DNA from: Stieleria bergensis
GTDB taxonomy: Bacteria; Planctomycetota; Planctomycetia; Pirellulales; Pirellulaceae
NCBI GenBank assembly: GCA_007745635.1
Contig: CP036272.1
Coordinates: 6,687,566-6,751,565 of the forward strand
Direction of reading: 5' to 3'
DNA: 64,000 nt
The position numbers and the translations under genes were made by a program. This document shows, piece by piece, positions 36,660 through 60,744 of this stretch (its first letter is position 1; the number at the start of each line of letters is the position of its first letter). Below the pieces are notes generated by a model, which did no database searches, was not told where the DNA came from, and saw nothing but the letters and a program-made list of their open reading frames with translations.

Positions 36660-37958
36660 ATGAAATCCCGTTCAACCCTTGATCCCTCCCGACGCATCGC
36701 CCTGAAGGCGGCTGGAGTCTCGATCGCCCTGCCGTTGCTTGAATCCGTCCACACAGCGGAAGCGGTTGCGGCGAAGAACCGGGACGCAGCATCAAAAAGG
36801 ATGGTCTTTGTCAGCACGGGACTGGGGATGAACCCCTCGACGTTTTTCCCCGACGAGTATGGCGCTCAATTCGCTTCGTCCCCAGTTTTGCCAGCGATGA
36901 TGAAGCATCGCGGTGAGTTCACGTTGTTTTCGCACATGGACCATCCGAATGTCTTCACCAAGCACGCCGGCATCAAATCACTGCTCAACGGCGTGCTGAA
37001 CAAAAACGCTCGGCCTGGCCAGAACATCTCGATCGATCAGGTCGCTGCCAATCACCTGGGCTATACATCACGCTTTCCTTCTCTGCACATCTCGCTGGGA
37101 GGCGCCGAGAGCGCTTCCTACAGCTCCTCTGGAATCCTGCTAAGACAGGAGACTTCGCCAGAAGCTCTGTTCAAGAAACTGTTCGTAGCTGATTCGGCGG
37201 CGGCACGAAAGCAGCGTGCATTGAAACTGGAAGAGCAGGGGAGTGTCCTTGATCTGGTCCGTACACGAGCGAGTCGACTGGAGCGTGACATCAGTCGATC
37301 CGATCGGGCCAAACTGGACGAGTACCTGACAGCGATCCGAGAAGCCGAAGAACGCCTGCAGGGAATGCGCCGTTGGCAGGACATCGACAAGCCAAAGGTC
37401 ACCAAGGAACAGTACGATCCTGCGGCGCGAGGACACGGCAGCTTGGACTACGGATTCCTCGGGCCGGTCATGTTTGATCTGCTGGCGCTGGCGCTGCAGT
37501 CAGATTCCACCCGTGTCATCACCGCAAACTTCTCGATGCACAATCGTGTGATTGAAATCGACGGCGTGACCAAGGGCTATCACACGCTTTCCCACCACGG
37601 AAACCGCCCGAGCCATCTACGTGAGCTTCAGATCATTGAAACGTTTTACATGCAGCAGTTATCGCGGTTCATCGAAAAACTGAAGGGAATCAACTCGAAT
37701 AGCGGTTCTCTCCTGGATGACACGATGGTGTTCTTTGGCAGCGGCATCAGCGATGCCTCCCGACACTCGAACCGCAACCTGCCAATCATCTTGGCTGGCG
37801 GCGGGCTCAAGCACCAGGGTCATTACGACGCTGTGCAGCGACACAATGGCAAACAAACTCCCTTGAACAATCTCTTTACCACCATGCTTCAGCACTTCGG
37901 GATCGAGATCGAATCCTTCAATGGCGCGACCGGAAATCTGAATCACGTGCTGGCTTAA
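36660..37958 (+). CDS. DUF1552 protein (plus-strand module)
   Basis: A 432-aa DUF1552 protein; the family is abundant in planctomycetes, exported, and almost always beside a DUF1587/1592-type cytochrome gene; its biochemistry is unknown. The N-terminus SRRIALKAAGVSIALPLLES looks like a Tat-type signal with a twin Arg. Family blocks: GLGMNPSTFFPDEYG, FTLFSHMDHPNVFTKHAG, YHTLSHHGNRPSHLRELQII and DDTMVFFGSGISDASRHSNR. The DUF1592 gene starts one base after the stop, so the two are coupled. Confidence 0.9.
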   Translation: MKSRSTLDPSRRIALKAAGVSIALPLLESVHTAEAVAAKNRDAASKRMVFVSTGLGMNPSTFFPDEYGAQFASSPVLPAMMKHRGEFTLFSHMDHPNVFTKHAGIKSLLNGVLNKNARPGQNISIDQVAANHLGYTSRFPSLHISLGGAESASYSSSGILLRQETSPEALFKKLFVADSAAARKQRALKLEEQGSVLDLVRTRASRLERDISRSDRAKLDEYLTAIREAEERLQGMRRWQDIDKPKVTKEQYDPAARGHGSLDYGFLGPVMFDLLALALQSDSTRVITANFSMHNRVIEIDGVTKGYHTLSHHGNRPSHLRELQIIETFYMQQLSRFIEKLKGINSNSGSLLDDTMVFFGSGISDASRHSNRNLPIILAGGGLKHQGHYDAVQRHNGKQTPLNNLFTTMLQHFGIEIESFNGATGNLNHVLA

Positions 37959-37959
37959 T

Positions 37960-40314
37960 ATGAATACCAAAACTGCCTTTCCACTGGTGTGCCTGTTCCT
38001 GCTGGTCGCTGCTGAACGACTGCACGCGGACGATCCCTACTCGCCTGTTCAGCCGTTCCTCAATCGCTATTGTGTTGCTTGCCACGGGGCAACCAAGCAG
38101 AAAGGCGAAGTGCGTCTGGACGACTTCGCCCAGATCGACGGCGCTCTCTGGAGCGACCTCTATGACCAGATCCATGACGCCAGCATGCCCCCTGAGGACG
38201 CTCGCCAGCCCTCGTCGAATGAGCGTGCCAGCATCGCTCAACTTGTGCTACAGATCTCGCGAGATGAAGCCTTCTCCATTCCCACTGGGTACCGCCGCCT
38301 GAACCGCCGAGAATTTCGCAACACCGTGCGTGACCTGCTTGGCCTAAAACCCGGAATCTATGACCCGGCAGGGCGAGTCTTCAAAGACGAAGTCGACCAC
38401 GGATTCGATACCAATGCGGACGAGCTGGTCATTTCCAATGAGCTGCTTTTGGAGTATCTCGAATCAGCCGAACACAGTTTACGGATGGCGTTGTTTCTGA
38501 CAGACCTTCAGCCGCCGGTCACAAAAGTTGTGGCGTTCAAGCCCGGCAAACTTCAGAGCGGAGATCGACGCTTCACCACAAACAAGAAGCATTCGACGGT
38601 CCTGCGTGGATCGGGACAGTACTCTGCAAGTGAAAGCCCACGCGGAGTCGCAATCTCGGGTTACTACAGGATCACTGTTCACGCCGCCGGAGTGGATCGC
38701 AACCACTACGGCAACATGAAGTTCCCGCCCGTAAGCGGTCCGATCAAGATGGGCATCGGCACACGACTCGATAGCGAAGGCAAGCAGTCCACGTCGAATC
38801 TGGCAAAGTCATTCGATCTTTTAGATGACCAGTTCGAAGTCTACAGCACTGTCGTCTGGCTTGAGAAAGGCGCCTACCCTTGGGTCGGTTTCCTCAACGG
38901 AGCGGGCAAACCTGCGTCCAGCATTCGCCAAGCCATTCGGCAACGAAAAGTCGACCCCAAAGAAATCAGTCCAGAGAACTACAACGGACCGGGCGTTGAA
39001 GTGACTCGATTCAGTCTCGAAGGCCCACTGGACCCTCAATGGCCGCCCCCTACCTACCGGACCATTTTCCAGACCGACGAGATGCCCGACTTCGAGAAGG
39101 CCGAAGTCCGCGCTCAACTGATGCAGCGTTTTCTGACGCGTGCATTCCGTCGCCCAGCCACCGATCAGGATGTCCGGGACTACCTTGATTACCTCGACCA
39201 ACAGTATCAGAGGACGTCGGATTGGCAGGAAGCATTCATCAAGACCTTTGCCGCCGCCATGGCCTCGCATGATTTCCTTTACATCAAAGAAGAAATCGGA
39301 CAACTGCCGCCCTTGGAACTGGCCAGCCGGCTTTCTTATTTTCTCTGGAGCACAATGCCCGACGCGGAACTGTTCCAGCTGGCAAGATCGGGCAGGCTCC
39401 TCGATGCGGACGTCTATTCGGCCCAGGTTGAACGCATGCTCGGCGATCCGAGAACGGATGAGTTCGTCCACGGCTTCGCCACCCAATGGCTCTCGCTGGA
39501 CCTGCTCGGAACCATGCCACCGGACATCAAAGACCGACGCTACTCGGCCTACCATAAGCAAAACTACGAGACGGCGTTTCGCAACGAAACGCTGCACTTC
39601 TTCAGGCACGTGCTTTTTGAAAACCAACCTGTCGGCGACTTCCTTGATTCAGACTACTCCATCATCAACGACACTCTGGCAAACGTTTACAACCTGCCCT
39701 TTGACGGTGGCTCGGAATTCCAACGTGTCTCACTGCCCAAAGCATCCCTGCGCGGTGGACTGCTAGGACACGGCAGCATCCTGGCCCTCACGTCTAACGG
39801 AGTGGAAACGCTGCCGGTGACCCGCGGCCACTGGATCCTTGACGAACTGCTGGGAACGCCACCGCCTGCCCCACCCGAAGAGGTCCCCGCTCTTGTCCCC
39901 GATCTGAACGGAGTCGACACGCCAAGAGACCAACTGGTCCGACATCGCAGAGACCCCGCCTGCTTTGAGTGCCACAAACGGATGGATCCACTGGGCCTGG
40001 CTCTGGAGAACTTTGACGTCATCGGAAGATACCGCGCAGCATACGAAACAGGGGCAACAATTGATCCTGCCGGTCAAATCTTTGGCACCAAGTTCCAAAA
40101 CGTGACAGAGCTGCGAAAACTCCTTCGCACACAACAGGATCCATTTGCCAAGAGCCTGATCATCAAACTGGCCGAATACGCCAAAGGCAGGCGACTCAAC
40201 CGGCGCGACCTCGAAATCGTCGATCAGGTCGCGGCAAAATCGAAGCAAGACGAACACCGATTTCAGTCGATGCTACGGCACCTGCTGGCCAGTGAACTCC
40301 TGCTTCACCGCTAA
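37960..40314 (+). CDS. DUF1587/1595/1592/1588/1585 cytochrome-type protein (plus-strand module)
   Basis: A 784-aa exported planctomycete protein. Signal peptide 1-23; heme-binding motif CVACH at residues 38-42; DUF1587 near 105-170 (GYRRLNRREFRNTVRDLLGL); a carbohydrate-binding-like middle; DUF1595 ~395-455; DUF1592 ~465-590 (ELASRLSYFLWSTMPDAELF); DUF1588 ~610-705, with CFECHKRMDPLGLALENFDV; DUF1585 at the end. The second CxxCH-like site, CFECH, could bind another heme. Function is unproven; thought to be an electron-transfer partner of carbohydrate or sulfatase metabolism. It follows DUF1552 directly. Confidence 0.9.
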   Translation: MNTKTAFPLVCLFLLVAAERLHADDPYSPVQPFLNRYCVACHGATKQKGEVRLDDFAQIDGALWSDLYDQIHDASMPPEDARQPSSNERASIAQLVLQISRDEAFSIPTGYRRLNRREFRNTVRDLLGLKPGIYDPAGRVFKDEVDHGFDTNADELVISNELLLEYLESAEHSLRMALFLTDLQPPVTKVVAFKPGKLQSGDRRFTTNKKHSTVLRGSGQYSASESPRGVAISGYYRITVHAAGVDRNHYGNMKFPPVSGPIKMGIGTRLDSEGKQSTSNLAKSFDLLDDQFEVYSTVVWLEKGAYPWVGFLNGAGKPASSIRQAIRQRKVDPKEISPENYNGPGVEVTRFSLEGPLDPQWPPPTYRTIFQTDEMPDFEKAEVRAQLMQRFLTRAFRRPATDQDVRDYLDYLDQQYQRTSDWQEAFIKTFAAAMASHDFLYIKEEIGQLPPLELASRLSYFLWSTMPDAELFQLARSGRLLDADVYSAQVERMLGDPRTDEFVHGFATQWLSLDLLGTMPPDIKDRRYSAYHKQNYETAFRNETLHFFRHVLFENQPVGDFLDSDYSIINDTLANVYNLPFDGGSEFQRVSLPKASLRGGLLGHGSILALTSNGVETLPVTRGHWILDELLGTPPPAPPEEVPALVPDLNGVDTPRDQLVRHRRDPACFECHKRMDPLGLALENFDVIGRYRAAYETGATIDPAGQIFGTKFQNVTELRKLLRTQQDPFAKSLIIKLAEYAKGRRLNRRDLEIVDQVAAKSKQDEHRFQSMLRHLLASELLLHR

Positions 40315-43092: not shown

Positions 43093-45558
43093 CTAGTTCT
43101 TCAGGAAGCTCTCGCTGACGACGATCGCTCGAATCAGATCGCGAAGGCCTGCGTCGGGTTCGGCCATCTGCTCGCAAATCCGGTCGATGACAGAGCGATC
43201 GCCAACTTCGACTTCGCGGCCAAGCGCGTAGGTCATCAGTTTCTCACTCAGACTGCGAGTGAACTGATCGTGCCGCTTGATCAATAGGGTGCGAAGTTCA
43301 CGGATGTCATCGAACTGTTCGCCGCTGGGCAGCTGGCCCGAAGCGTCAACCGGCAAGCCCTTGCCGTACTGAGTCCGCCAAGCGCCGATGGGATCAAAAC
43401 TCTCCAAGGCGAACCCCAGCGGATCGATTTTGCGGTGACACTCGGCGCAGGCAGCGATGCTGCGGTGCTTGGCCAGCTCTTCACGAACGGTCAGAGCGCC
43501 GCGGATGTCGGGTTCAATCTCCGGCACATCATCGGGCGGGGGCGGCGGAGTGTATCCCAAAACCTTCTCCAAAGCATAGATGCCACGCACGACCGGCGAA
43601 GTGTCCACACCGTTAGCCGAAGCCGTCAGGAAACTGCCCTGGGTCATCAGCCCTCCACGCACCGTGCCAGCGGTCGAGACCCGGCGCAGATGGTTGCCTA
43701 CGACCGGAGGCAACTCGTAATGCGCAGCCAATTCACGGTTGACAAACGTATAATCGGCATCGAGGAAACGTTTGGGCGGCAAGTTTTGATCAAGAAGGTG
43801 ACGGAAGAACAGCGTCGTCTCGCCCGCCATGGCCGACTCAAGATTGTCCCGATAATACACACCGAATTCACCCGACACCGGCATCTCACCCAGGTTGTCC
43901 CAGTCCAGCCAGCGCCGCACGAACTGATTGACAAACCGCTCAGAGCGAGGATCCTTTAACATGCGATCAACTTCGGCATCAAGCACCTTCGGGTCGCTTA
44001 AGTGACCCGCGCCAGCATGAGCCAGCAGCTGGGCATCAGGCTGTGAAGACCAGAGAAAGTACGACAAGCGCGAGGCCAGACTGTACCCGCCAAGCGTTCC
44101 CTGTCCCTCTTGCAGATAGATAAACGACGGCGAGCACAAAATCGTCTGGAACCCAAGCTGCAATGCAGCCAGCGGCTCCAGGCCTGAATCAAGCTTTGCG
44201 ATCACCATCCGCTCAATCGGCTTCAACTCGTCAGCCTGCAACGGGCGACGAAAAGCACCGGCGGCAAACACACGCAAGCGTTGAATGATTGTGTTACGGT
44301 TCAGATCCTCGGGTTGCAGGTCGCCATACATCAACCGGTGACCCGCCGGCGGCCACTGTTCAAGGTGCGGGCCTTCGACTTGGATGTCAAAGATGCGAAG
44401 TTTCGGACCGCGATAAACCTTCAGCAGGCCATGAGATTTCTCATAGCCGGATTTCATCTTGGCGAACGGCGCGACCTCGGGATGTTCGGCGGCTTTCTGT
44501 GTGATGATGCGAACCAAGCGTTTCGCGGCACTCGTTCCGTTGCGAAATCGCACTTCAGGCTCGAAACCCTGATCGATGTGAGTGGTCCACTCGAACCACG
44601 CCGGCTCCTCGCTGGTCAGTTCGGCCAGACCGACGGAGCGTTCGGTGGTGATGTTGCCGGTGCTCTCAACGCTGCCCTCCCGGTCAACCATCGCCAGTTC
44701 CAAGACCAGCGGGTCACCGTTGCGGAAGTCATCCAAGGCCGTGCCATACGGGTGATCGCGATCAATCGCCGCAGCCTTCACACGCACGGTGTACATGCCG
44801 CTATGAGCCACGCCGCCATACAAGGGACGGAACCCGATGTGCCCACCTCGATAGTGACGGCCATACAGATCGGTGTATGGCGTGTCTGGGATGAACCGAA
44901 AGCGGTCAACATGAAAGAGCTTGGGCAGATTCTCCTTGTCTTTGCCAGTGAAGTAGTACGGCGTCTGCTGGGCGTACTGCTTTGACTCCGGTCGAGGCCC
45001 GAAATGCGTCGCACGCCTGATCGCTTCCTCGGCCGCACCCAGGTAATGATCCAACAGCATGCCAGAGGTCACCAGTTCGCGTCCGTTGTTGTCAAACCCG
45101 TCCACTTTGACATCCGGCGGGAAATCCGCTGCGGGATTCCATGCCTGAACATTCAGTGACAGAAGGTCACCGATCGTGTGTTGATACTCGAACCGGTTGA
45201 GCCGTCGCATGACGGTGTGTTGACCGTGAGATGTCAACTCGGCACGCGCGTCGGCGATTCCCGCAGTGATCGACGCGATGGTCTTGGCCTTCTCGTCTGC
45301 ACTCGGTTGCCGCTTCTTTGGCGGTGGCATCTCGCCGAGGTTCAGCTGATCAACGATCTCCTGCCAGAGCTCCAACTGGTGAAGGTCCGTGATCGCATCG
45401 CCCAGACCGTCGAAGCGGCGGTCAGATTTCTGGGTGTCCGGGCCGTGACAGTCGATGCAGTAGGTCGCAAGAAACTGCCTGGGCAGCTCGGCATCGGCTA
45501 CTCCACTCAGAGCAACCAGCATCGCCAGGCACAGTGTGGTCAAAGTTGTCTTGTTCAT
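43093..45558 (-). CDS. DUF1587/1595/1592/1588/1585 cytochrome-type protein (minus-strand module)
   Basis: An 821-aa paralogue of the gene at 37960 with the same domain order. Signal peptide ending near GVADA; heme motif CIDCH at residues 34-38; DUF1587 with MRRLNRFEYQHTIGDLLSL; DUF1592 with SLASRLSYFLWSSQPDAQL; DUF1588 with CAECHRKIDPLGFALESFDP; DUF1585 at the C-terminus. It is the last gene of the sigma-FecR-DUF1552-DUF1592 operon, 14 bases after DUF1552. The two paralogues in the window are clearly divergent, so they are not a recent duplication. Confidence 0.9.
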   Translation of the reverse strand: MNKTTLTTLCLAMLVALSGVADAELPRQFLATYCIDCHGPDTQKSDRRFDGLGDAITDLHQLELWQEIVDQLNLGEMPPPKKRQPSADEKAKTIASITAGIADARAELTSHGQHTVMRRLNRFEYQHTIGDLLSLNVQAWNPAADFPPDVKVDGFDNNGRELVTSGMLLDHYLGAAEEAIRRATHFGPRPESKQYAQQTPYYFTGKDKENLPKLFHVDRFRFIPDTPYTDLYGRHYRGGHIGFRPLYGGVAHSGMYTVRVKAAAIDRDHPYGTALDDFRNGDPLVLELAMVDREGSVESTGNITTERSVGLAELTSEEPAWFEWTTHIDQGFEPEVRFRNGTSAAKRLVRIITQKAAEHPEVAPFAKMKSGYEKSHGLLKVYRGPKLRIFDIQVEGPHLEQWPPAGHRLMYGDLQPEDLNRNTIIQRLRVFAAGAFRRPLQADELKPIERMVIAKLDSGLEPLAALQLGFQTILCSPSFIYLQEGQGTLGGYSLASRLSYFLWSSQPDAQLLAHAGAGHLSDPKVLDAEVDRMLKDPRSERFVNQFVRRWLDWDNLGEMPVSGEFGVYYRDNLESAMAGETTLFFRHLLDQNLPPKRFLDADYTFVNRELAAHYELPPVVGNHLRRVSTAGTVRGGLMTQGSFLTASANGVDTSPVVRGIYALEKVLGYTPPPPPDDVPEIEPDIRGALTVREELAKHRSIAACAECHRKIDPLGFALESFDPIGAWRTQYGKGLPVDASGQLPSGEQFDDIRELRTLLIKRHDQFTRSLSEKLMTYALGREVEVGDRSVIDRICEQMAEPDAGLRDLIRAIVVSESFLKN

Positions 45559-51885: not shown

Positions 51886-52779
51886 GTGGATACTCAATAC
51901 TGGCTCGATCGGATTGCAAAGCTGAACAAAGCTCGAAACAATGCGCCTCACAAGCCACTGTTGCTGCTGACGGTGCTTGATCTTGCAGATGCGAGTGATT
52001 TGCCAAGCGAGTCCGTCTCTCTGACGCCAGAGATCGCGTTTCGCTTCGAGACATTTGCTCAGATTGTCACCTACCGCCGAACGCAGCGGATTGATATTCG
52101 GATGCCATTCCATCACTTGAAATCCGATGGTTTCTGGCGGGCGTTCACTCAGGAAGGCTCACTGTCGAAACATCGTTCGGTGACCCAATATGTTGTGCCG
52201 GAACCTGGGTTCGTCGAGGCGTGTTCGAAAGCAAGTTTTCGCGAGTCCGCCAGACGCTTAATCATCGCAAAGCACTTTGAACCGGCAGAGCGGAACGCGC
52301 TTTATCACATGGTTGGGCTAACGATTCCAGATGATGATCAAATCGCCCGCGATGCCAACTTCGAAATCCCCGAGGGTGCGGAGCGAGCTGGAAGAAACGG
52401 GCGATTCCGAATTGATGTTGCTGCGGCCTACGCTTTCACGTGTGCATTGACTGGCTATCGAATCACGACACTTGATGGTGGGTCAATCGTCGATGCAGCA
52501 CACATTCATCAGTTCGCCGACTCGCGAAACAATGATCCTCAAAATGGGCTGGCTCTCGGCAAGAATGCTCACTGGCTCTTCGATCGAGGCCTTTGGTCGA
52601 TCGACGACGATTTCCGAGTGCTGGTGGCGGTCGATGCGTTCACGGAGGCTTGTCCGGATCAAACTTCGCTGACCGAATACCACGGCGAGCGTTTGCGACT
52701 CCCGATCAACGAGAAGCTCTGGCCCGACCAGCATCACTGTCGCTGGCACCGCAAACATCGCTTCCGAGGATCCGTGTAA
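51886..52779 (+). CDS. HNH endonuclease with putative sulfur-binding-type N-terminal domain
   Basis: A 297-aa protein (GTG start at 51886). The C-terminal HNH nuclease (PF13391 type) shows CALTGYRI, then DAAHIHQF (His206), DPQNGLALG (Asn220) and NAHWLFDRG (His229), the H-N-H triad intact. The N-terminus NNAPHKPLLLLTVLDLA and IRMPFHHLKSDGFW resemble the domain that precedes HNH in phosphorothioate-DNA-binding type IV restriction enzymes (SBD-HNH, as in ScoMcrA), with weaker similarity. Such enzymes cleave DNA carrying a foreign modification. It is 97 bases upstream of the HIT-PLD-helicase gene in the same direction, so probably part of that locus. Modification specificity is inferred. Confidence 0.8.
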   Translation: MDTQYWLDRIAKLNKARNNAPHKPLLLLTVLDLADASDLPSESVSLTPEIAFRFETFAQIVTYRRTQRIDIRMPFHHLKSDGFWRAFTQEGSLSKHRSVTQYVVPEPGFVEACSKASFRESARRLIIAKHFEPAERNALYHMVGLTIPDDDQIARDANFEIPEGAERAGRNGRFRIDVAAAYAFTCALTGYRITTLDGGSIVDAAHIHQFADSRNNDPQNGLALGKNAHWLFDRGLWSIDDDFRVLVAVDAFTEACPDQTSLTEYHGERLRLPINEKLWPDQHHCRWHRKHRFRGSV

Positions 52780-52876
52780 CTGGGCTCACTGGAGTAGACG
52801 TGCAAGCGTCACTGCGTCACAATTATTGATGTGGACACTTCCCAACGACAGTCAAGCGACTTACTAGCGAGCGTGG

Positions 52877-55800
52877 ATGCGTATGGCGACTTCGCCGTTT
52901 CTCGAAATTCCTTCAGCGAACTGGATCGCTTCGAACGATCTGGCCTTCGCCGTTTTCGATGGCTTTCCCGTGAACGTTGGACACTCGCTAATCATCACGC
53001 GGCGAGTCACACCCACTTGGTTTGATGCAACGGCGGACGAACAATCCGCATTGATGGAACTCGTCAACGTTGTCAAACAGAAACTTGACCAATCGCTGCA
53101 CCCAAAACCTGACGGCTACAACGTCGGTTTCAACGCCGGCGATGCAGCCGGACAAACCGTCCCTCATCTCCACATCCATGTGATCCCAAGATACTCAGGC
53201 GATGTGGATGACCCACGGGGCGGCGTTCGATATGTGATTCCTAGCAAAGCGAATTACCTAAAGGACGACCTGACGGAAACTTCCAGCGAACGGGCTTCCG
53301 ACGAACCGAGCCCCAGCCAACGGGCAAGCAGCCAACGGGCAAGCAGCCAACTGGTAAGCAGCCAACTGGTAAGCAGCAACGCGAAACCTGCGGCCACCTT
53401 GAGTGTCGGCTACCCCGACTCGCCGCTGTGGGAACAACTGTCGTGGAGAATTGCCGGCGCCCATGCGGTTGATGTCCTGGCCTCGTTCGTTCAGGCATCG
53501 GGGCTTGCAATCATCGAAGAGCAACTCTTCAAGGCGCTGCGCAGTGGAGCTCAAGTACGAATCCTGGTTAGCGACTACCTCTATATTTCTGCACCAAGGG
53601 CACTCCAAACCTTGCTCGGCTGGTGCGAGTTGGCGGCAGAGGATTTTGATAACGGACGGCTACACGTTCGACTGATTCAGACAGCCAAGCTTCCGACTGA
53701 TCCGGAGTCATTTCACCCCAAGGCATGGCGGATTGTCGAGGGATCACGCGACTTCATTTCCGTTGGAAGCAGCAACCTCTCAAAAGCCGCGCTTGTCAGC
53801 GGTGTGGAATGGAACCTGCTGTCAAGCTCCACTACGTCGGAACCGTCTCACGTTCAATTCTCGGAGGAATTTGACGCACTGTGGCAGGCCGCGTCACCGT
53901 TGACGCCGGAACTTGTCGCCTCGTATGCAATCTCGGCGGCGAAATATCGTCAGCAGCATTTTGTGCCTGAGGCGAAAGACGCTCAAGAGATCCCAGCACC
54001 GCGGCCCTGGCAAGTTGAGGCCTTGGCTTCGCTGGCGCGCTTGCGCGACGCAGGACACAGCCGAGCGCTGGTCGCAGTGGCAACGGGCATGGGTAAAACG
54101 TGGTTGGCAGCTTTCGACGCTTGCCAGGTTGGCATGGAAATCGGCAGGCGCCCCAGGGTCCTGATCATCGCGCATCGGGCTCATATCCTTGCCCAGGCCG
54201 AAGCGGTGCTCTCACGTTTGCTCGACCACCGCTTCAGTTCCAGTCCAACCGCATGGTACATCGGCAATCAAAGCGAACTGTCGAGCAACTTGGTCGTCGC
54301 ATCGATCCAGAAACTTTCTCGCCCCGCAGGGATCCAGCGACTTGCGACCGAACACTTCGACTATGTGATCATGGATGAGGTGCACCACGCCCACGCACCG
54401 AGCTACCGCCGAGTGCTCGCGCAACTTAATTGCGACTTTGCACTCGGGTTAACCGCGACTCCTGAACGGACCGACGGCGTCGACGTTGCGACGATCTTTG
54501 ACGACAACTTGGCGTATCACGCCAGCATTGGCGAAGGGATCGCCGAAGAGGCTCTTGTCCCCTTCCACTATGTTGGCATCAAAGACACGGCTGACTTTCG
54601 GCAGATCCCTTGGCGAAACGGGCGGTTTGACCTTGCCGAATTGGAGCAACAAGTCGCTCGTAGCGAACGCATGGATCGGCTGTGGTCAACGATGGAACAA
54701 CACCCTGCCGACCGGACGCTCATTTTCTGCTGCTCGCGGCGACACGCGGTGTTCGCACGAGACTGGCTGACGGCGCAGGGCGTCTCCGCTGCGGCGGTCT
54801 TTTCTGGCGAGGGAAGCGATCCCTACGGTGACTCACTGGAGCGATTGCGGACAGGCGAATTGCACGCCCTATGTGTCGTCGACATGTTCAATGAAGGATT
54901 AGACATTCCGGCGGTGGACCGCGTTGTCATGCTGCGCCCAACCGAGTCCAAAATCATCTTCCTCCAGCAACTTGGCCGCGGCCTGCGTGCGAGTGAAGGC
55001 AAGAGTCGCTTGCTGGTCATTGACTTTGTAGGCAATCACCGCGTCTTTGCTCAACGGATCATCCACCTGCTGTCACTGCAGTCCGCAAGCAATCAGTGGC
55101 ACGCGCTCAAAGATTGGCTCAATGGCAAACCGGCCAACCTCCCCGAAGGTTGCCTGCTGGACGTCGAAGTGGATGCCAAAGACATGCTCAAACAATTCCT
55201 ACCGAAAGGCAGGAACGCGGGGATCGAAGGGTATCGCGCGATCCGCGACGACCTGGGGCGGCGACCAACCGCAATGGAGGTCTTTAGCCGGGGATTCCTG
55301 CCACGCACGATCGGCGCCGCTGAAGGAAGCTGGTTTCGATTCGCGGATGCCGAAGGTGATTTAGATGAGTTGCAACGGCAGGTGGCGGCGGAGTTCCATG
55401 AATGGTTGAAGACGCTGGAAACGACCAGCTTGAACAAGTCTTACAAAATGGTTGTGCTCCGTGTCCTGCTAGATTCCGGACAGCTGTTCACAGGGATTGA
55501 GCTCGACGAACTCTCCAGGCAGTGCCGTCGATTCATGCTAGAACACGAGGTACTGCGCCGTGATCTCGAAGGAAAAAACCATGCCGTCGACCACGAAAAT
55601 GCCAGCCAACGCGAGTGGGCAGCCTGGTGGATCAAATGGCCGATTGGGCGTTGGCTTGATGCTCAGAATAAAAAGGTTTGGTTCGAGCGTACCGGCGATC
55701 GCTTTCGATTGCTCATCCAATGCGCGGACGATCTGAAACCATCACTCGAATCCATGACAGAAGAACTCGTCGACTGGCGCCTGGCGGCTTACGCCAAAAG

Positions 55801-56668
55801 TCGTCGGCTTGTTAAAAGTGCGGTTGGCGATCTTGCCTTTGAGGGAAAGGTGTCGCACGCCAACGGCCGGCCAATCTTGTTCCTCCCGGACAAAACGAAA
55901 TGCCCAGATCGGCCCGTTGGTCCAATCGTGGCAACACTGCCCGATCGCTCGCAGTGGGAATTTAAACTCGTCAAGGTCGCGTGCAATGTGGCAAAACCGC
56001 TCGGTGAAAAAGGCAATCAGCTGGGTGAGTTACTGAAGCGGTGGTTTGGCTCCAACGCAGGATTGCCAGGCACCGGTTTCCAAGTGCGGTTCGAATCCAA
56101 ATCGGGAGCGTGGCATGTCTCGCCGGTGGGCGCGGCCATGCAGCCCGATGTCCAGCTAGAGAGACCGCCTGAAGAGACGTTCCAGCAAGTGCAGCCAAGC
56201 GTTGAATTGGCGTCCCGATACACAACACATGCCCCGGTTTACGACCTATCGGCTGCGGCCGGTGACTGGGGACCGCAAGGAAGCCCTGCCGAAGCTGGCT
56301 GGATCGCGGTCGCAGATCAATCGCTGTCGCAGGGCATGTTTGCGGCTCGGGTGACAGGGCAGTCAATGGAGCCAAGAATTCCGAGCGGCTCCTGGTGCCT
56401 TTTTCGTCCCTGCCCAGCCGGATCGCGCGAAGGACGATTATTGCTTGTGCAAATCAACACGCAGACAGATCCAGAAGACGGCGGCCAGTACACCGTCAAG
56501 CGATACCATTCCGTCAAGCAATCGATTGAGGACGGATGGGAGCATCATTCTGTTCAGCTTGAACCGCTCAACAAGGGTTACCAGCCAATCGAAATCTCCA
56601 GCGAACAAGCCGACGACATCCGCATCGTCGGCGAATTCATCAGCGTGATCGAACCCAACGATTCGTAA
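52877..56668 (+). CDS. HIT-PLD-SF2 helicase-S24 peptidase fusion, 1263 aa
   Basis: Four activities in one chain. Residues 1-125: HIT hydrolase with HLHIHVIP (His97/99/101), normally acting on nucleotide-adenylates. 140-170: Ser/Gln linker of four five-residue repeats. 175-345: PLD-type nuclease half (FHPKAW with His280/Lys282, GSSNLS with Asn300). 375-780: SF2 helicase, Walker A VATGMGKT (Lys407), DEVH at 500-503, LGRGLRASEGKSRLLVIDF as motif VI. 780-1110: unassigned helical region. 1115-1263: S24/LexA-type signal-peptidase fold with GQSMEP (Ser1163) and YTVKRY (Lys1208), a complete Ser/Lys dyad. Resembles helicase-nuclease defence proteins; the S24 part could trigger self-cleavage on damage. 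ATG 52877 lacks a clear ribosome site. Confidence 0.87.
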   Translation: MRMATSPFLEIPSANWIASNDLAFAVFDGFPVNVGHSLIITRRVTPTWFDATADEQSALMELVNVVKQKLDQSLHPKPDGYNVGFNAGDAAGQTVPHLHIHVIPRYSGDVDDPRGGVRYVIPSKANYLKDDLTETSSERASDEPSPSQRASSQRASSQLVSSQLVSSNAKPAATLSVGYPDSPLWEQLSWRIAGAHAVDVLASFVQASGLAIIEEQLFKALRSGAQVRILVSDYLYISAPRALQTLLGWCELAAEDFDNGRLHVRLIQTAKLPTDPESFHPKAWRIVEGSRDFISVGSSNLSKAALVSGVEWNLLSSSTTSEPSHVQFSEEFDALWQAASPLTPELVASYAISAAKYRQQHFVPEAKDAQEIPAPRPWQVEALASLARLRDAGHSRALVAVATGMGKTWLAAFDACQVGMEIGRRPRVLIIAHRAHILAQAEAVLSRLLDHRFSSSPTAWYIGNQSELSSNLVVASIQKLSRPAGIQRLATEHFDYVIMDEVHHAHAPSYRRVLAQLNCDFALGLTATPERTDGVDVATIFDDNLAYHASIGEGIAEEALVPFHYVGIKDTADFRQIPWRNGRFDLAELEQQVARSERMDRLWSTMEQHPADRTLIFCCSRRHAVFARDWLTAQGVSAAAVFSGEGSDPYGDSLERLRTGELHALCVVDMFNEGLDIPAVDRVVMLRPTESKIIFLQQLGRGLRASEGKSRLLVIDFVGNHRVFAQRIIHLLSLQSASNQWHALKDWLNGKPANLPEGCLLDVEVDAKDMLKQFLPKGRNAGIEGYRAIRDDLGRRPTAMEVFSRGFLPRTIGAAEGSWFRFADAEGDLDELQRQVAAEFHEWLKTLETTSLNKSYKMVVLRVLLDSGQLFTGIELDELSRQCRRFMLEHEVLRRDLEGKNHAVDHENASQREWAAWWIKWPIGRWLDAQNKKVWFERTGDRFRLLIQCADDLKPSLESMTEELVDWRLAAYAKSRRLVKSAVGDLAFEGKVSHANGRPILFLPDKTKCPDRPVGPIVATLPDRSQWEFKLVKVACNVAKPLGEKGNQLGELLKRWFGSNAGLPGTGFQVRFESKSGAWHVSPVGAAMQPDVQLERPPEETFQQVQPSVELASRYTTHAPVYDLSAAAGDWGPQGSPAEAGWIAVADQSLSQGMFAARVTGQSMEPRIPSGSWCLFRPCPAGSREGRLLLVQINTQTDPEDGGQYTVKRYHSVKQSIEDGWEHHSVQLEPLNKGYQPIEISSEQADDIRIVGEFISVIEPNDS
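53315..53374 (+). repeat. Four tandem 15-base repeats inside the fusion gene
   Basis: The unit AGCCAACGGGCAAGC occurs twice, followed by two copies of AGCCAACTGGTAAGC. Because 15 is a multiple of three, the array encodes a repeated SQRAS/SQLVS linker between the HIT and PLD domains and can lengthen or shorten without frameshift. Pairwise identity of units 1-2 and 3-4 shows recent tandem duplication. Confidence 0.9.
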
Positions 56669-57258
56669 CCACCGCAACGCGACGAGCTCTTTTTCTGTCG
56701 ATGCGTCAGCGTTCGCTGTCGCGAGGACCAGAACAGCTGGAAAGCAATCGTGAACAGAGATTCCAAACCACAGTCCATCGCAGGACAACAGACTGTCCCG
56801 CTAGATCCTTCATTCCCTCGTCGCATCGTCGACACCACCATCTTGTTCAACAGAACGAAGCCCCGTAAAATAGTGCCACAAGACGGTCTACGCACCACTC
56901 AAATGGCGGCTCTAACAGACGCAACCGTGGCTCACAACTCAGAAGTGACGAAGCTGATTCGAACACGCGGGGACACGACCCGCTAGAATCTGGGATTTGC
57001 TAAAATCATCACGTGGATCCATTGACGAATTCTTGTCTCAAAGTGCTTCGCTGAGATTAAAAATTCCGATCGTCTCGACGCACATCACAATTTACGACAT
57101 CAACGCACTGATAGCTGCCATCTGAGAGCATGCTCTTCCGGATTGGTAACCGACCTTTGTCATTCGCCTTGCCCCCGTAAAACTGCATGGCATTCGCGCC
57201 GTAAGACTCTGAATTCACTTTAGAAATCGCAACCTGTAAGCACATCACTTGATCGGCC
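56669..57258. other. Intergenic between the two halves of the defence locus
   Basis: 590 bases without a convincing gene on either strand. It probably holds the promoter of the GHKL operon. TTGACG at 57022 could be a -35 element, but I find no good -10 at the right spacing. Confidence 0.4.
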
Positions 57259-59226
57259 ATGTCAGAATGGGTTTTTGCAAAACTGTCGGGCGCTGCTGTT
57301 CGGCGGGATCCTCAAGAGACGGAACTCTTTAAGACTGAGGATGCCGGCGAGGGCGAGTACGCCGGTACGGACGCCTTGGTCCGTGAAGTCATTCAAAATT
57401 CAATGGACGCGGGGACCGGCGATGGACCGGTTCGAGTTCGATTTGCCTTGCACGGAAACGATTCCTTGCCCGATCCCGGGCGAATTGCGAGCTACTTTAG
57501 GCGACTGCAACCTGGCTTGATGTACCGAGATATCTCGTTCAATGGAGCGGGCGAGCCTCAACTACCGCACGGCTTCCTGGTTTGTGAAGACTTTGGCACT
57601 CGTGGCTTGGGTGGAGATCCATACCGTGCGACCGACCCACCGGACCAAACCAAAGGCGAAGACTTCTTTTGGTTCTGGCGAAACATCGGGCGAAGTGGCA
57701 AAACGGGCGATGATCTCGGACGTTGGGGGCTCGGCAAAACCGTCTACCGTGCCGCCAGTCGTGTTGGTTGCATGCTCGGGATGACCGTTCGCCACTCCGA
57801 CGGCAAGCAGTTGCTGATGGGACAAGCCGTGCTGAGAATCCACAAGCACGATGGAACAGAGTACGCACCTGAAGGATTTTGGTGCAGTGGTTGCAACGAG
57901 ACCGAGACTCCTCTGCCCATTGATGATGAGGCGTCTCTTGCACGGTTCGCGTCGGAGTGGAAACTTGCGCGAAAGGGTGAACCGGGACTTTCCGTCGTCG
58001 TTCCCTATGTTGCGGATGAACTAAAAGCCGAAAGCATTCTTAGACTAGCAGCCGTCAACTTTTTTTTGCCGATCGTGCAAAAGCGACTGGTGGTCGAGAT
58101 CGCCGGTGATGGGCTCCCTGGCGGACAGGCTGAGTATCGCGTTGACGACCAGACCATTGAATCGGTCTGCAAGAAACTCAACTGGACCGGCAAAGCAAGA
58201 CAGAAACTGAATGCGGCACCACCAGTCGAATTCGCAAAGAAGTGTCTCGCCCCAACGACAGAAGTCATTCCCACCCGGTTGCTGGGTGAGTCTCGGATTC
58301 CGTCAATGTCTGAAGAAGCGTTCGACACAAGGACGTTACAGAAACTGCGGCAGCGATTTGCCGACGAAGAATTGGTGGCCATCCGAGTCCAGTCCGCGCT
58401 GCCGAAGAAAGCCGGTGGCCATGAGATCGGCGAGTTGAATGTGTTCCTGCAACGCACTGCGGTGAATGATCGATTTGAGTCGTACTATGTCCGTGAAGGA
58501 ATGACGATTACCCGGCTCAATTCCAAACTGTCCATGCGTGGCACGCGGGCGTTGGTCACCGTTGATCCTGGACCACTGGCATCGTTGCTTGGTGACACGG
58601 AGGGCCCATCACACGTTAGCTGGGACACGTCGAACGACGAACGTCCAAACCGAGTCTGGAAGACCTGGAAGGGACGCGTCAAATTCTTCGCCAAGATCGT
58701 GGACTCACTTGTCGAGCTACTCACTCCGCCCCCGGATAAAGCTGACTTTGACCTTCTTAGCGATTTCTTCTCGATCGAGCAGCTTGAATCGCCGCAGAGA
58801 AAACGAAAGCCCAAATCGGAGGGTGAACGGACGCGAGACTTCGATCCACCCGATCCATCACCAAGATGGTACCGCATGCAGGGCAAGGGAGGCGGTTTTC
58901 AGATCTGCGACTCTAGCCAGCTTCCAACACCGGTTGGAGCGACACTGCGAGTCTCCGTCGCCTACGATATGCCGAGTGGCAATCCGATGAAGCACTGGAG
59001 CAAATTCGATTTCAACTTCCGTGACAAAGCCAGCCACATTAAGTTTAAGCTTCGGGGCCTGAATGCGAGAGCGACAAGCGGCAATGTCATCGAGATAAAA
59101 GTCGAGGACGAAGACTTTGATCTTGTTGCAACAGGCTTTGACATCCATCGAGACTTGATCGTCCGAATCGACGAAGTTCAAGAAGAGGCAGAACACGCTG
59201 ATAAACCACAGGAGGTCGCATCATGA
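57259..59226 (+). CDS. GHKL ATPase (MORC/MutL-like), first gene of a three-gene operon
   Basis: A 655-aa protein with a Bergerat-fold ATPase in the first ~300 residues: N box LVREVIQNSMDAG (Asn47, Asp50), G1 box CEDFGTRGLGG (Asp111), G2 box DDLGRWGLGKTVYRAAS (residues 151-167). The S5-like domain and a C-terminal beta-rich part (residues ~540-655) follow; no nuclease motif is visible. Homologues of MORC/MutL ATPases occur in predicted prokaryotic restriction and defence operons beside SF2 helicases, as here. Not a sensor kinase: no HisKA or membrane span. The stop overlaps the next ATG (ATGA at 59223). Confidence 0.82.
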   Translation: MSEWVFAKLSGAAVRRDPQETELFKTEDAGEGEYAGTDALVREVIQNSMDAGTGDGPVRVRFALHGNDSLPDPGRIASYFRRLQPGLMYRDISFNGAGEPQLPHGFLVCEDFGTRGLGGDPYRATDPPDQTKGEDFFWFWRNIGRSGKTGDDLGRWGLGKTVYRAASRVGCMLGMTVRHSDGKQLLMGQAVLRIHKHDGTEYAPEGFWCSGCNETETPLPIDDEASLARFASEWKLARKGEPGLSVVVPYVADELKAESILRLAAVNFFLPIVQKRLVVEIAGDGLPGGQAEYRVDDQTIESVCKKLNWTGKARQKLNAAPPVEFAKKCLAPTTEVIPTRLLGESRIPSMSEEAFDTRTLQKLRQRFADEELVAIRVQSALPKKAGGHEIGELNVFLQRTAVNDRFESYYVREGMTITRLNSKLSMRGTRALVTVDPGPLASLLGDTEGPSHVSWDTSNDERPNRVWKTWKGRVKFFAKIVDSLVELLTPPPDKADFDLLSDFFSIEQLESPQRKRKPKSEGERTRDFDPPDPSPRWYRMQGKGGGFQICDSSQLPTPVGATLRVSVAYDMPSGNPMKHWSKFDFNFRDKASHIKFKLRGLNARATSGNVIEIKVEDEDFDLVATGFDIHRDLIVRIDEVQEEAEHADKPQEVAS

Positions 59227-59990
59227 TCAAGCGATTCAATTCCCTGGGGCGAAAGCGCGTTCCTCGCGACTGTGTCTCGATTGAAGTTGTAGATGGTGAA
59301 CCACGAACATTCTCCGCTCACATTGACTTCAAAAATCACAACTGGGATGCAAACGGAACCGTTGTTCTAGAAGCAACCTGTGCCGGCTCTTCTTTGGTTC
59401 AGCGATTTGACTGTGGGACGGTCGGCGCACTAAAACAACCGATCGGCCTGCCCTTGAATGATCTACACGGCCAGAACGTATTCTTCTCACTGAAGATAAT
59501 CGATCCCAGTCAGCACATTGGTCGGTTACTTGGCGTTGCTGAAAACATCCGACCGATCACCACGGGAAAGCAAACCGTCAGCGGGCGAAAAGGCATCCTG
59601 CCGGTCGAGCACGCGCCGCTTGGCCAAGAACTCTGGAAACTGGAATACCGAGATCACGACGTTTTCCTACTGGTCAATCAAGATGTACCAAGCCTTTCAG
59701 AGAGCATCCGCTCCGACCCCGTTTTCTTTTCGCTCATCTACCCTCAGATCATGCGACAGGTTCTCCACCGCGCAATCGCGGACGGAGCGGAAACAGATGA
59801 GGACGACGATCGATGGCCAGTTCTCTGGCTAACGTTCGGTCGAAAACTCCACCCTGATCATGAAGAACCACCTGCTCATACCGATGGCGAAGACGTGATT
59901 GATGACTGGGTCGAAATGGTGATTGCCGAATTCTGCAAACTGCACGAACTAAAGAACAAGTACGTACACTCCGGCTATGGGGGAAATTAG
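59223..59990 (+). CDS. Unknown protein in GHKL operon, 255 aa
   Basis: Not recognised. 255 aa, soluble and beta-rich in the first ~110 residues (VSIEVVDGEPRTFSAHIDF, GTVVLEATCAGSSLVQRFD), followed by helical segments and an acidic patch (ETDEDDDRWPVLWL). The C-terminus EMVIAEFCKLHELKNKYVHS is helical. No signal, membrane span or nuclease motif. Overlaps both its neighbours (4 and 14 bases), so it is strictly co-translated with the GHKL ATPase and likely forms a complex with it. Confidence 0.75.
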   Translation: MIKRFNSLGRKRVPRDCVSIEVVDGEPRTFSAHIDFKNHNWDANGTVVLEATCAGSSLVQRFDCGTVGALKQPIGLPLNDLHGQNVFFSLKIIDPSQHIGRLLGVAENIRPITTGKQTVSGRKGILPVEHAPLGQELWKLEYRDHDVFLLVNQDVPSLSESIRSDPVFFSLIYPQIMRQVLHRAIADGAETDEDDDRWPVLWLTFGRKLHPDHEEPPAHTDGEDVIDDWVEMVIAEFCKLHELKNKYVHSGYGGN

Positions 59991-60744
59991 TCAGATGCGA
60001 CTTAGACAATTCAACCAAGCTGGCGTCGACGCGTTTAGCAAATTCCTCACCGCGTGCCGTGAGAATCCCAACGAGCGCGTGCCCATGGAACTTGCGGAAA
60101 GCGACCAGCATACAATCCTGATCTCGGATGAGATCTTTGTCGAGCCTCGCGAATTCTCTACGCGACGTGATGCAGCGGATTACTTTCATCGAATCCTTTC
60201 TCCGCTATCTCCGGACGCAGTCCGAAAAGACGCAGGGATGTGGACTTGGCTTTCGCTATTTTACTTCGATCAGATCTGCCCGAATCCAAACGGCAACCGA
60301 AAGGTCCGAAACGACTACACATATCTCTTTATGCCCGATCAGTCTCGGCATTTTTATCGCCATTTGCTGTTTATCGCGTGGCAGGTCAAACAAATTGCTT
60401 CAGAGCACAATCGGCTGTTTCTCGATTCGTCACTGGTCACTCTCGATAAGTTGACGACCGAGGTGTTCAAGCGATTGTATCTCACTCGTATCCCTTGCGT
60501 GTTTGAGTTGCTCGACCGACTTTACTGGGACCGCAGGACCAATCGCCCCGCAAAAGGAATTGTGTCTCCGCACAAAATCAGCGCTGGCGATCTGATGCAT
60601 CGCCTCCCCACACGCATCCGACAACTTGAAAAGACGTACGACCTACAGAGCCTGAACGCCGACCAACTGCTAGAAATTCTTGGCAATGAATTTCAACAAC
60701 GAGCTGCCGAATCAAACCCTCAAATGGAGTTCATCTTGGAATGA
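59977..60744 (+). CDS. Unknown protein in GHKL operon (DUF6339-like in character), 255 aa
   Basis: I do not recognise this with confidence. 255 aa, all-helical by composition: MRLRQFNQAGVDAFSKFLTA, WTWLSLFYFDQICPNPNGNR, RHFYRHLLFIAWQVKQIASE, VTLDKLTTEVFKRLYLTRIP. Similar-looking small helical proteins follow GHKL ATPases in other bacterial operons; the DUF name in the call is a guess to test. No catalytic motif. The start at ATG 59977 lies inside the preceding gene (14-base overlap); ATG 59995 is an alternative. Last gene of the operon. Confidence 0.65.
   Translation: MGEISQMRLRQFNQAGVDAFSKFLTACRENPNERVPMELAESDQHTILISDEIFVEPREFSTRRDAADYFHRILSPLSPDAVRKDAGMWTWLSLFYFDQICPNPNGNRKVRNDYTYLFMPDQSRHFYRHLLFIAWQVKQIASEHNRLFLDSSLVTLDKLTTEVFKRLYLTRIPCVFELLDRLYWDRRTNRPAKGIVSPHKISAGDLMHRLPTRIRQLEKTYDLQSLNADQLLEILGNEFQQRAAESNPQMEFILE

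Follow-up and report, generated by a model that had tools for sequence, protein, structure and literature searches.

Five genes on the forward strand of a 64,000-nucleotide stretch of the Stieleria bergensis genome (contig CP036272.1, positions 6,687,566 to 6,751,565; hereafter the window) encode an HNH nuclease, a helicase-nuclease (HEL), a GHKL ATPase and two small proteins (U1 and U2). These genes probably make up a small defence island composed of three modules with separate histories, namely the HNH nuclease, the HEL protein and the GHKL-U1-U2 trio, which are found apart from one another in most of the loci fetched. The novelty of the locus appears to be HEL, a predicted variant of the SauUSI-type restriction motor with an added HIT domain and an intact-looking S24 peptidase domain; the remainder is an ordinary defence island whose parts are of known or candidate kinds and would be directed against phages. 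An earlier note on this DNA had proposed one new five-gene restriction system, and the separate occurrence of the modules does not support it. With that false lead removed, the better lead is a restriction motor that seemingly carries its own SOS-type protease switch, which, if true, would unite the sensing of DNA damage with restriction in a single protein. The trio, a conserved and divergent set of PDC-M33 layout in Planctomycetota, can be tested alone.

Gene layout and linkage of the three modules

The HNH gene (51886–52779, 297 amino acids (aa)) is followed after 97 bp by the HEL gene (52877–56668, 1263 aa) on the same strand. After a further 590 bp come the genes for the GHKL ATPase (57259–59226, 655 aa), U1 (59223–59990, 255 aa) and U2 (59977–60744, 255 aa), which overlap end to start. 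The five co-directional open reading frames (ORFs) are thus present as the earlier note had described them. The stretch between HEL and GHKL (56669–57258) contains no convincing gene, including the small extra gene that is located upstream of GHKL on several plasmids. The overlapping GHKL operon of the earlier note therefore holds for the trio, whose relatives adjoin restriction-modification genes, but an operon of all five genes is rejected on account of the 590-bp gap and the separate occurrence of the modules.

Linkage was assessed in 24 GHKL loci (the window, L008–L014 and L100–L115). HEL or HNH is found within the fetched stretch in only two of them, the window and L014 from Rhodopirellula maiorica, and the other 22 are without either; several contigs are short (3.3–7.5 kb), and absence of HEL here means absence from the fetched stretch. 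Among 19 other distinct loci with all or part of a HIT/S24-type HEL, GHKL is present in the stretch only in L014, and most have no HNH gene in the stretch. Two loci are listed twice (L016 is L082, genome G012, and L019 is L068). The nearest relatives found also differ from module to module, which fits a defence island: that of HNH (86% identity) is in genome G013, which has no GHKL match, that of HEL (85–89%) is in G012, where it lies about 2.7 Mb from GHKL, and that of GHKL (81%) is in R. maiorica. A ResIII-type gene and a helix-turn-helix gene, of differing lengths, precede GHKL in the closely related loci L008 and L009 and precede the HNH-HELb genes in L070 (L008:6965-9819, L009:8673-9673, L070:4027-5582), a pattern that resembles an insertion hotspot.

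Several observations weigh against separate histories. All five genes lie within about 10 kb in L014, in the order HNH (− strand), GHKL-U1-U2 and HEL. The HNH match is located at most about 1.5 kb from a PLD-helicase match in four of the ten genomes in which HNH was found (the window, G013, G001 and G022). Of 396 genomes in the order, 20 have GHKL, 58 have a HEL-type gene and nine have both. HEL-type genes occur in 9 of the 20 GHKL genomes vs 49 of the 376 others (p 0.0008), or in 8 of 19 without the genome studied here (p 0.002). Within the family the figures are 5/7 vs 8/53 (p 0.004, or 0.013 with the own genome left out), and for HIT-type HEL alone, by our own sorting, 4/7 vs 5/53 (p 0.007; 0.028 without the own genome). 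These statistics are uncorrected for kinship, most of the co-occurrence genomes are drafts, and three of the nine shared genomes (G525, G351, G443) carry the other helicase type as judged by match range. By the listed coordinates GHKL and HEL are adjacent only in the own genome, which is a single contig of 7.1 Mb; the distance is about 25 kb in G351, and the other seven genomes have the two on different contigs, where adjacency across contig ends is possible. Shedu, taken as a control, is found in none of the 20 GHKL genomes and in 14 of 396 overall, a weak control given a chance expectation below one. GHKL and HEL may nevertheless be linked functionally in trans.

Alternative explanations

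The model of the earlier note, a single undescribed restriction system of five genes, is highly improbable. The genes are co-directional, all five are found together in L014, and GHKL and HEL co-occur at the genome level. Set against this are the 590-bp gap, the different order and orientation in L014, the trio standing without HEL or HNH in 22 of 24 stretches, nearest relatives that differ per module, and unequal identities between the window and L014 (HNH 52%, HEL 69%, GHKL 81%, U2 78%, and U1 89% over 188 aa and 82% over the rest). Adjacency of the five genes across genomes, which the earlier note had put forward as the check on its model, is seen in R. maiorica, with another gene order, and elsewhere the genes are mostly separate. 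The HNH gene (L014:167-1052, −) and U1 (L014:4401-5158, +) are apparently frameshifted in the deposited draft of R. maiorica.

A functional pairing of HNH and HEL, as a unit of two modification-dependent nucleases with the GHKL trio standing apart, is also unlikely, though less so. The two genes share a strand and are 97 bp apart, the HNH match lies near a HEL match in 4 of 10 HNH genomes (of 98 relatives searched; the match in G022 is weak, at 25% identity), and the order HNH-c18-HELb is the same in G013 and G001. However, the partner in L070 (G013) is of the DUF3427 type, and the partners in both G013 and G001 are without HIT and S24 in the alignment. HNH equally often (4 of 10: G013, G009, G007 and G011) adjoins a homologue of one DUF4357 protein, of which the L070 copy from G013, the only one scanned, matches the PADLOC candidate PDC-S14 at 8e-115. 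HIT/S24-type HEL loci mostly have no HNH in the stretch, and at the genome level HNH and HEL show no significant association within the family (p 0.06, or 0.14 with the own genome left out). That the five are housekeeping genes of DNA repair or damage response has very little probability. S24 domains, RadD/XPB-like motors and HIT domains, the last with aprataxin-like chemistry, occur in repair too, and HEL matches the models of RadD and XPB, with scores far short of the cut-offs. Opposed to this are the sporadic presence of GHKL (20/396 genomes) and HEL-type genes (58/396), the closeness of HEL to a type IV restriction enzyme, and the neighbours of the plasmid-borne relatives of the trio, which include methyltransferases (dcm), Vsr, restriction enzymes, AIPR, Shedu and AbiG.

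The HEL helicase-nuclease

Within the proposed three-module island, HEL is the second module. It begins with a HIT domain (52916–53197, residues 14–107) containing the HxHxH motif, followed by a PLD nuclease domain (53480–53884, approximately residues 202–336) with HxK and SSN motifs, an SF2 motor composed of ResIII and Helicase_C (53999–54991, residues 375–705; Pfam and PDB 7clg), a coupler-like region without a Pfam match (55052–56137, approximately residues 726–1087) and an S24 peptidase domain (56234–56638, residues 1120–1254; Pfam S24 1.8e-10) that features A1128-G1129, Ser1163 and Lys1208. HIT, ResIII, Helicase_C and S24 all score above the curated Pfam cut-offs, and PLDc_2 reaches 25 bits vs a cut-off of 27, with both of its motifs present and conserved. 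The domain calls of the earlier note are confirmed in this way, by Pfam for these domains and for HNH_2, by conserved motifs for PLD and by alignment for GHKL. A repetitive Ser/Gln-rich linker (window 53300–53400, HEL residues ~145–170) separates HIT from PLD.

The best PADLOC model for HEL is mREase_IV, which covers type IV methyl-directed enzymes (1.3e-84), followed by PbeA (4.9e-31); the DISARM and Zorya models give weak, helicase-level matches only, and Mza was considered but not adopted as a close system. Among PDB chains 7clg ("putative helicase", 953 aa) matches best, with 4.4e-73 over residues 202–822. We take 7clg to be SauUSI on account of its length and the SauUSI paper. As in SauUSI-type enzymes, the HxK-bearing PLD nuclease of HEL is joined to an SF2 motor; the start of a coupler comes next, all in the same order as in SauUSI. 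In the SauUSI paper, the enzyme is described as a PLD nuclease, a motor, a coupler (618–805) and an SRA target-recognition domain (806–953) (PMC7913695). HEL differs in its extra N-terminal HIT domain and in the S24 domain at the end where SauUSI has the SRA domain, and Pfam gives no match to DUF3427 in HEL, so that the C-terminal DUF3427/SRA part of SauUSI-type enzymes is not seen. The type IV-like helicase-nuclease of the earlier note is supported by these matches.

An alignment of 30 HEL rows (28 distinct) was used to follow the catalytic residues. All HIT-type rows retain the HIT HxHxH, the PLD HxK and SSN, Walker A and DExH wherever they cover these motifs. In the S24 domain, the Ser and Lys columns are kept in 11 of 11 distinct HIT-bearing homologues, the window included, and the cut-site Gly in 10, with a Ser at that position in L081; this count leaves out eight DUF3427-type-like rows, L077, which has no HIT, and eight further rows that are truncated, broken or lacking S24. 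The window protein contains the Ala-Gly, Ser and Lys expected of such a domain, with a distance of 34 residues between Gly1129 and Ser1163. The Gly-to-Ser distance of E. coli LexA is likewise 34. The S24 part also matches the transcriptional-repressor and CI-like-repressor families of PHROG (9e-14 and 3.5e-04).

The S24 domain is not found in every homologue. L062 encodes a HIT-bearing HEL homologue in a complete ORF without S24, and the eight DUF3427-type-like rows have neither HIT nor S24. The distant homologue L019 exhibits a weak S24 match (19.2 bits vs a cut-off of 23.3), with an uncertain Lys, followed by DUF3427, and in L064 and L065 the S24 domain scores above the cut-off and about 250 aa that match nothing in Pfam come after it. 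Together with the window, these layouts therefore place S24 either internally, after the motor and ahead of the C-terminal end, or at that end itself. L077:2114-6452 (−) encodes an S24-bearing PLD-helicase without HIT that adjoins an HNH-like gene (G022). The AlphaFold model of the HEL C-terminus has a mean predicted local distance difference test (pLDDT) score of 62 and is mostly confident only in residues ~779–1087; a Foldseek search with this model, in which the S24 part is of low confidence, gave no match at E 0.001, and a PDB search with the S24 stretch alone gave none at E 0.1.

HEL is predicted to be a SauUSI-like, ATP-driven restriction motor in which the PLD nuclease would cut, the SF2 motor would translocate and the coupler would link both, with HIT added in front and a LexA/CI-type S24 domain in place of the SauUSI target-recognition domain. 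RecA bound to single-stranded DNA may trigger self-cleavage of S24 at A1128-G1129 and so turn HEL on or off during DNA damage. Such a switch, in either direction, is possible because the S24 site looks intact, the repressor families are matched, and RecA and LexA are encoded in the own genome. The conserved S24 domain, with its cut site, Ser and Lys, could thus act as the built-in proteolytic switch that the earlier note had envisaged, the switching itself being inferred. A broader and more tentative suggestion is that damage-gated restriction motors form a family that includes HEL, in which S24 is either internal, ahead of the C-terminal end and behind the motor (L019, L064, L065), or terminal (the window). 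RecA filaments arising on phage attack or DNA damage would induce the self-cut and detach a specificity or inhibitory end, by which restriction would be turned on, or off as a built-in alleviation. No description of the HIT/PLD/helicase/S24 combination, or of S24/LexA with restriction and helicase, was found in a literature search that had preprints and most subscription papers outside its reach.

The GHKL-U1-U2 operon

The GHKL protein has no Pfam match at E 1, and its motifs, which we take to be those of the GHKL family, were read from an alignment. It matches the PADLOC model PDC-M33A at 9.1e-13, with the best stretch at residues 38–283, and profile-profile comparison of its family with PDC-M33A-type proteins gave 99.7% and 3.9e-27, with 2.6e-34 in the other comparison. 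PDC-M33 is a candidate system already listed in PADLOC-DB, and this match of the GHKL protein tells against the undescribed five-gene system of the earlier note. GHKL is present in 7 of 98 relatives in addition to the profile count for the order given above. U1 and U2 follow it in 21 of the 24 loci, counting L100 (U2 cut by the contig end), L109 (U2 split) and L014 (U1 frameshifted); the exceptions are L013 (internal deletion), L107 (contig end) and L115 (fragment).

The window GHKL protein finds three plasmid records, of which the best is 21% identical over 94%. Two of these were used as second-step queries, and 11 plasmid stretches were fetched. The same three-gene layout is annotated in seven of them (Arthrobacter, Enterococcus, Lactococcus L092, Ligilactobacillus, Paenarthrobacter, Priestia and the archaeon Halomicrobium), with the third gene annotated as DUF6339 in six. 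Of the remaining stretches, that of Deinococcus shows three consecutive unnamed genes, one from Lactococcus ends after GHKL and two are unannotated. The Arthrobacter trio matches PDC-M33A, B and C (3.5e-82, 6.4e-30 and 1e-31), and the Enterococcus trio matches A and B but not C.

The window trio resembles PDC-M33 in having a GHKL protein and then two smaller proteins, overlapping in a row, with strong homology for GHKL. By position, U1 would be the counterpart of PDC-M33B and U2 that of PDC-M33C (DUF6339). This assignment is not firm by sequence. The window trio differs from PDC-M33 in that its best plasmid GHKL match is only 21% identical and that neither U1 nor U2 matches the PDC-M33B or PDC-M33C models in PADLOC. 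In hhalign comparisons with M33B-type proteins U1 gave E 6e-4 and 3.6e-3 (probability 28.5% and 9.1%), a weak profile match, and against M33C-type proteins U2 gave E 0.63 and 0.016 (0.1% and 2.8%), which is a very weak match or none, with crossed controls (n=4) at 0.18–0.8. PDB searches with the GHKL, U1 and U2 profiles returned nothing meaningful, and the AlphaFold model of U1 (mean pLDDT 33.8) is unusable. L113:1-2277 (−) encodes a homologue of U2 that is fused to a long series of repeats, of leucine-rich type by eye, reaching the contig end, which hints that U2 may bind a protein partner.

The trio is probably a divergent PDC-M33-like operon that encodes a putative MutL/MORC-type ATPase and two small partners, and it perhaps serves as an ATP-driven clamp recruiting or licensing nucleases. 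MORC and paraMORC are GHKL ATPase families of restriction-modification operons and, like the GHKL protein and its relatives, occur near helicase, methyltransferase, HNH and Vsr genes; the accessible part of that study does not mention a pair of small partners resembling U1 and U2 (Iyer 2008, PMC2292703). The HEF_HK/paraMORC paper provides context only (PMC8011034). The CapK/CapS and VapKSC GHKL kinase systems were considered and rejected, since in the available text they have STAS domains (PMC13373217) and Pfam gives no STAS match here. The literature search described above found no experimental test of PDC-M33, including in the accessible text of PMC11514479, and no description of DUF6339. 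None of 62 virus-borne stretches matching two peptide patterns, a search of limited reach, contained a GHKL relative. In L102:9887-14050 (−) and L108:9162-14333 (+), an Eco57I-type methylase and a DEAD helicase with an MrfA Zn-binding domain are located directly beside the GHKL operon, and the genes immediately after U2 in L008 (L008:13743-15569, +) encode a different HNH nuclease (PF01844) and a metallophosphoesterase.

The HNH nuclease

The first module is predicted to be a phosphorothioate- or modification-sensing restriction nuclease of the SBD-HNH kind. It has an SBD-like N-terminal domain and an HNH_2 nuclease domain (residues 186–240; Pfam 3.2e-11, above the curated cut-off; PADLOC HNH model 2.4e-15). 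Over its whole length it matches NF045808 (PT-DNA_restrict, phosphorothioated-DNA restriction endonuclease) at 8e-35 and 120.3 bits, below the cut-off of 180, and its N-terminal part matches SBDHga1 (PDB 8h0l) at 8.1e-05. Through SBDHga1, H22-K23 and M73-P74 may correspond to the sulfur-pocket positions H116-R117 and Y164-P165 of ScoMcrA; under this putative numbering H22, K23 and P74 supply the pocket residues H116, R/K117 and P165. The three are invariant in seven aligned HNH homologues, and M73 is variable. In the ScoMcrA study, Lys is reported at the position of R117 in most homologues and Y164M strengthened binding (PMC6224610). HNH thus resembles ScoMcrA and other phosphorothioate-dependent SBD-HNH nucleases in its SBD-like N-terminus, HNH C-terminus and pocket H, K and P, and differs in its length of 297 aa, its score below the NCBIfam cut-off and the lack of a Pfam match for the SRA-like middle domain that the same study reports for ScoMcrA. 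The modification-sensing type proposed in the earlier note agrees with this evidence.

No match to DndC was found in the whole own genome, and none of 14 control genomes scored above the cut-off either, hence there was no strong positive control. The lack of a DndC match fits what is expected of a host of a phosphorothioate-dependent nuclease (Ssp genes were not searched genome-wide). HNH homologues are located beside members of the DUF4357 protein family in L070, L072, L073 and L076.

Surroundings of the locus

The five-gene stretch is flanked by genes for an alpha/beta hydrolase and a sulfatase, neither of which is a defence gene. The G+C content is 0.51 across 59–61 kb vs 0.57–0.58 just outside. 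The earlier note had seen no methyltransferase, dnd/ssp gene or BREX or DISARM core gene in the window. The 20 further ORFs scanned, ten vs Pfam and ten others vs PADLOC, gave no other defence gene; with the five genes, 25 of the 57 ORFs of at least 150 aa, many of them overlapping, were covered, and the rest are unscanned. A promoter and terminator scan gave no excess over shuffles, and a shared element upstream of HNH and GHKL (51611–51628/57015–57032 and 51677–51694/57030–57047) was rejected as not above chance (E 0.09).

Fourteen genomes of the genus were searched for homologues of the flanking genes. Among the 13 other than the own, the upstream gene has homologues in nine (51–54%) and the downstream gene in seven, at only 36–38%, so no empty site of the island could be defined from the flanking genes. 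Elsewhere in the window, two DUF1552/DUF1592-type planctomycete gene sets (36660–40311 and 43096–45558) are encoded with a sulfatase between them.

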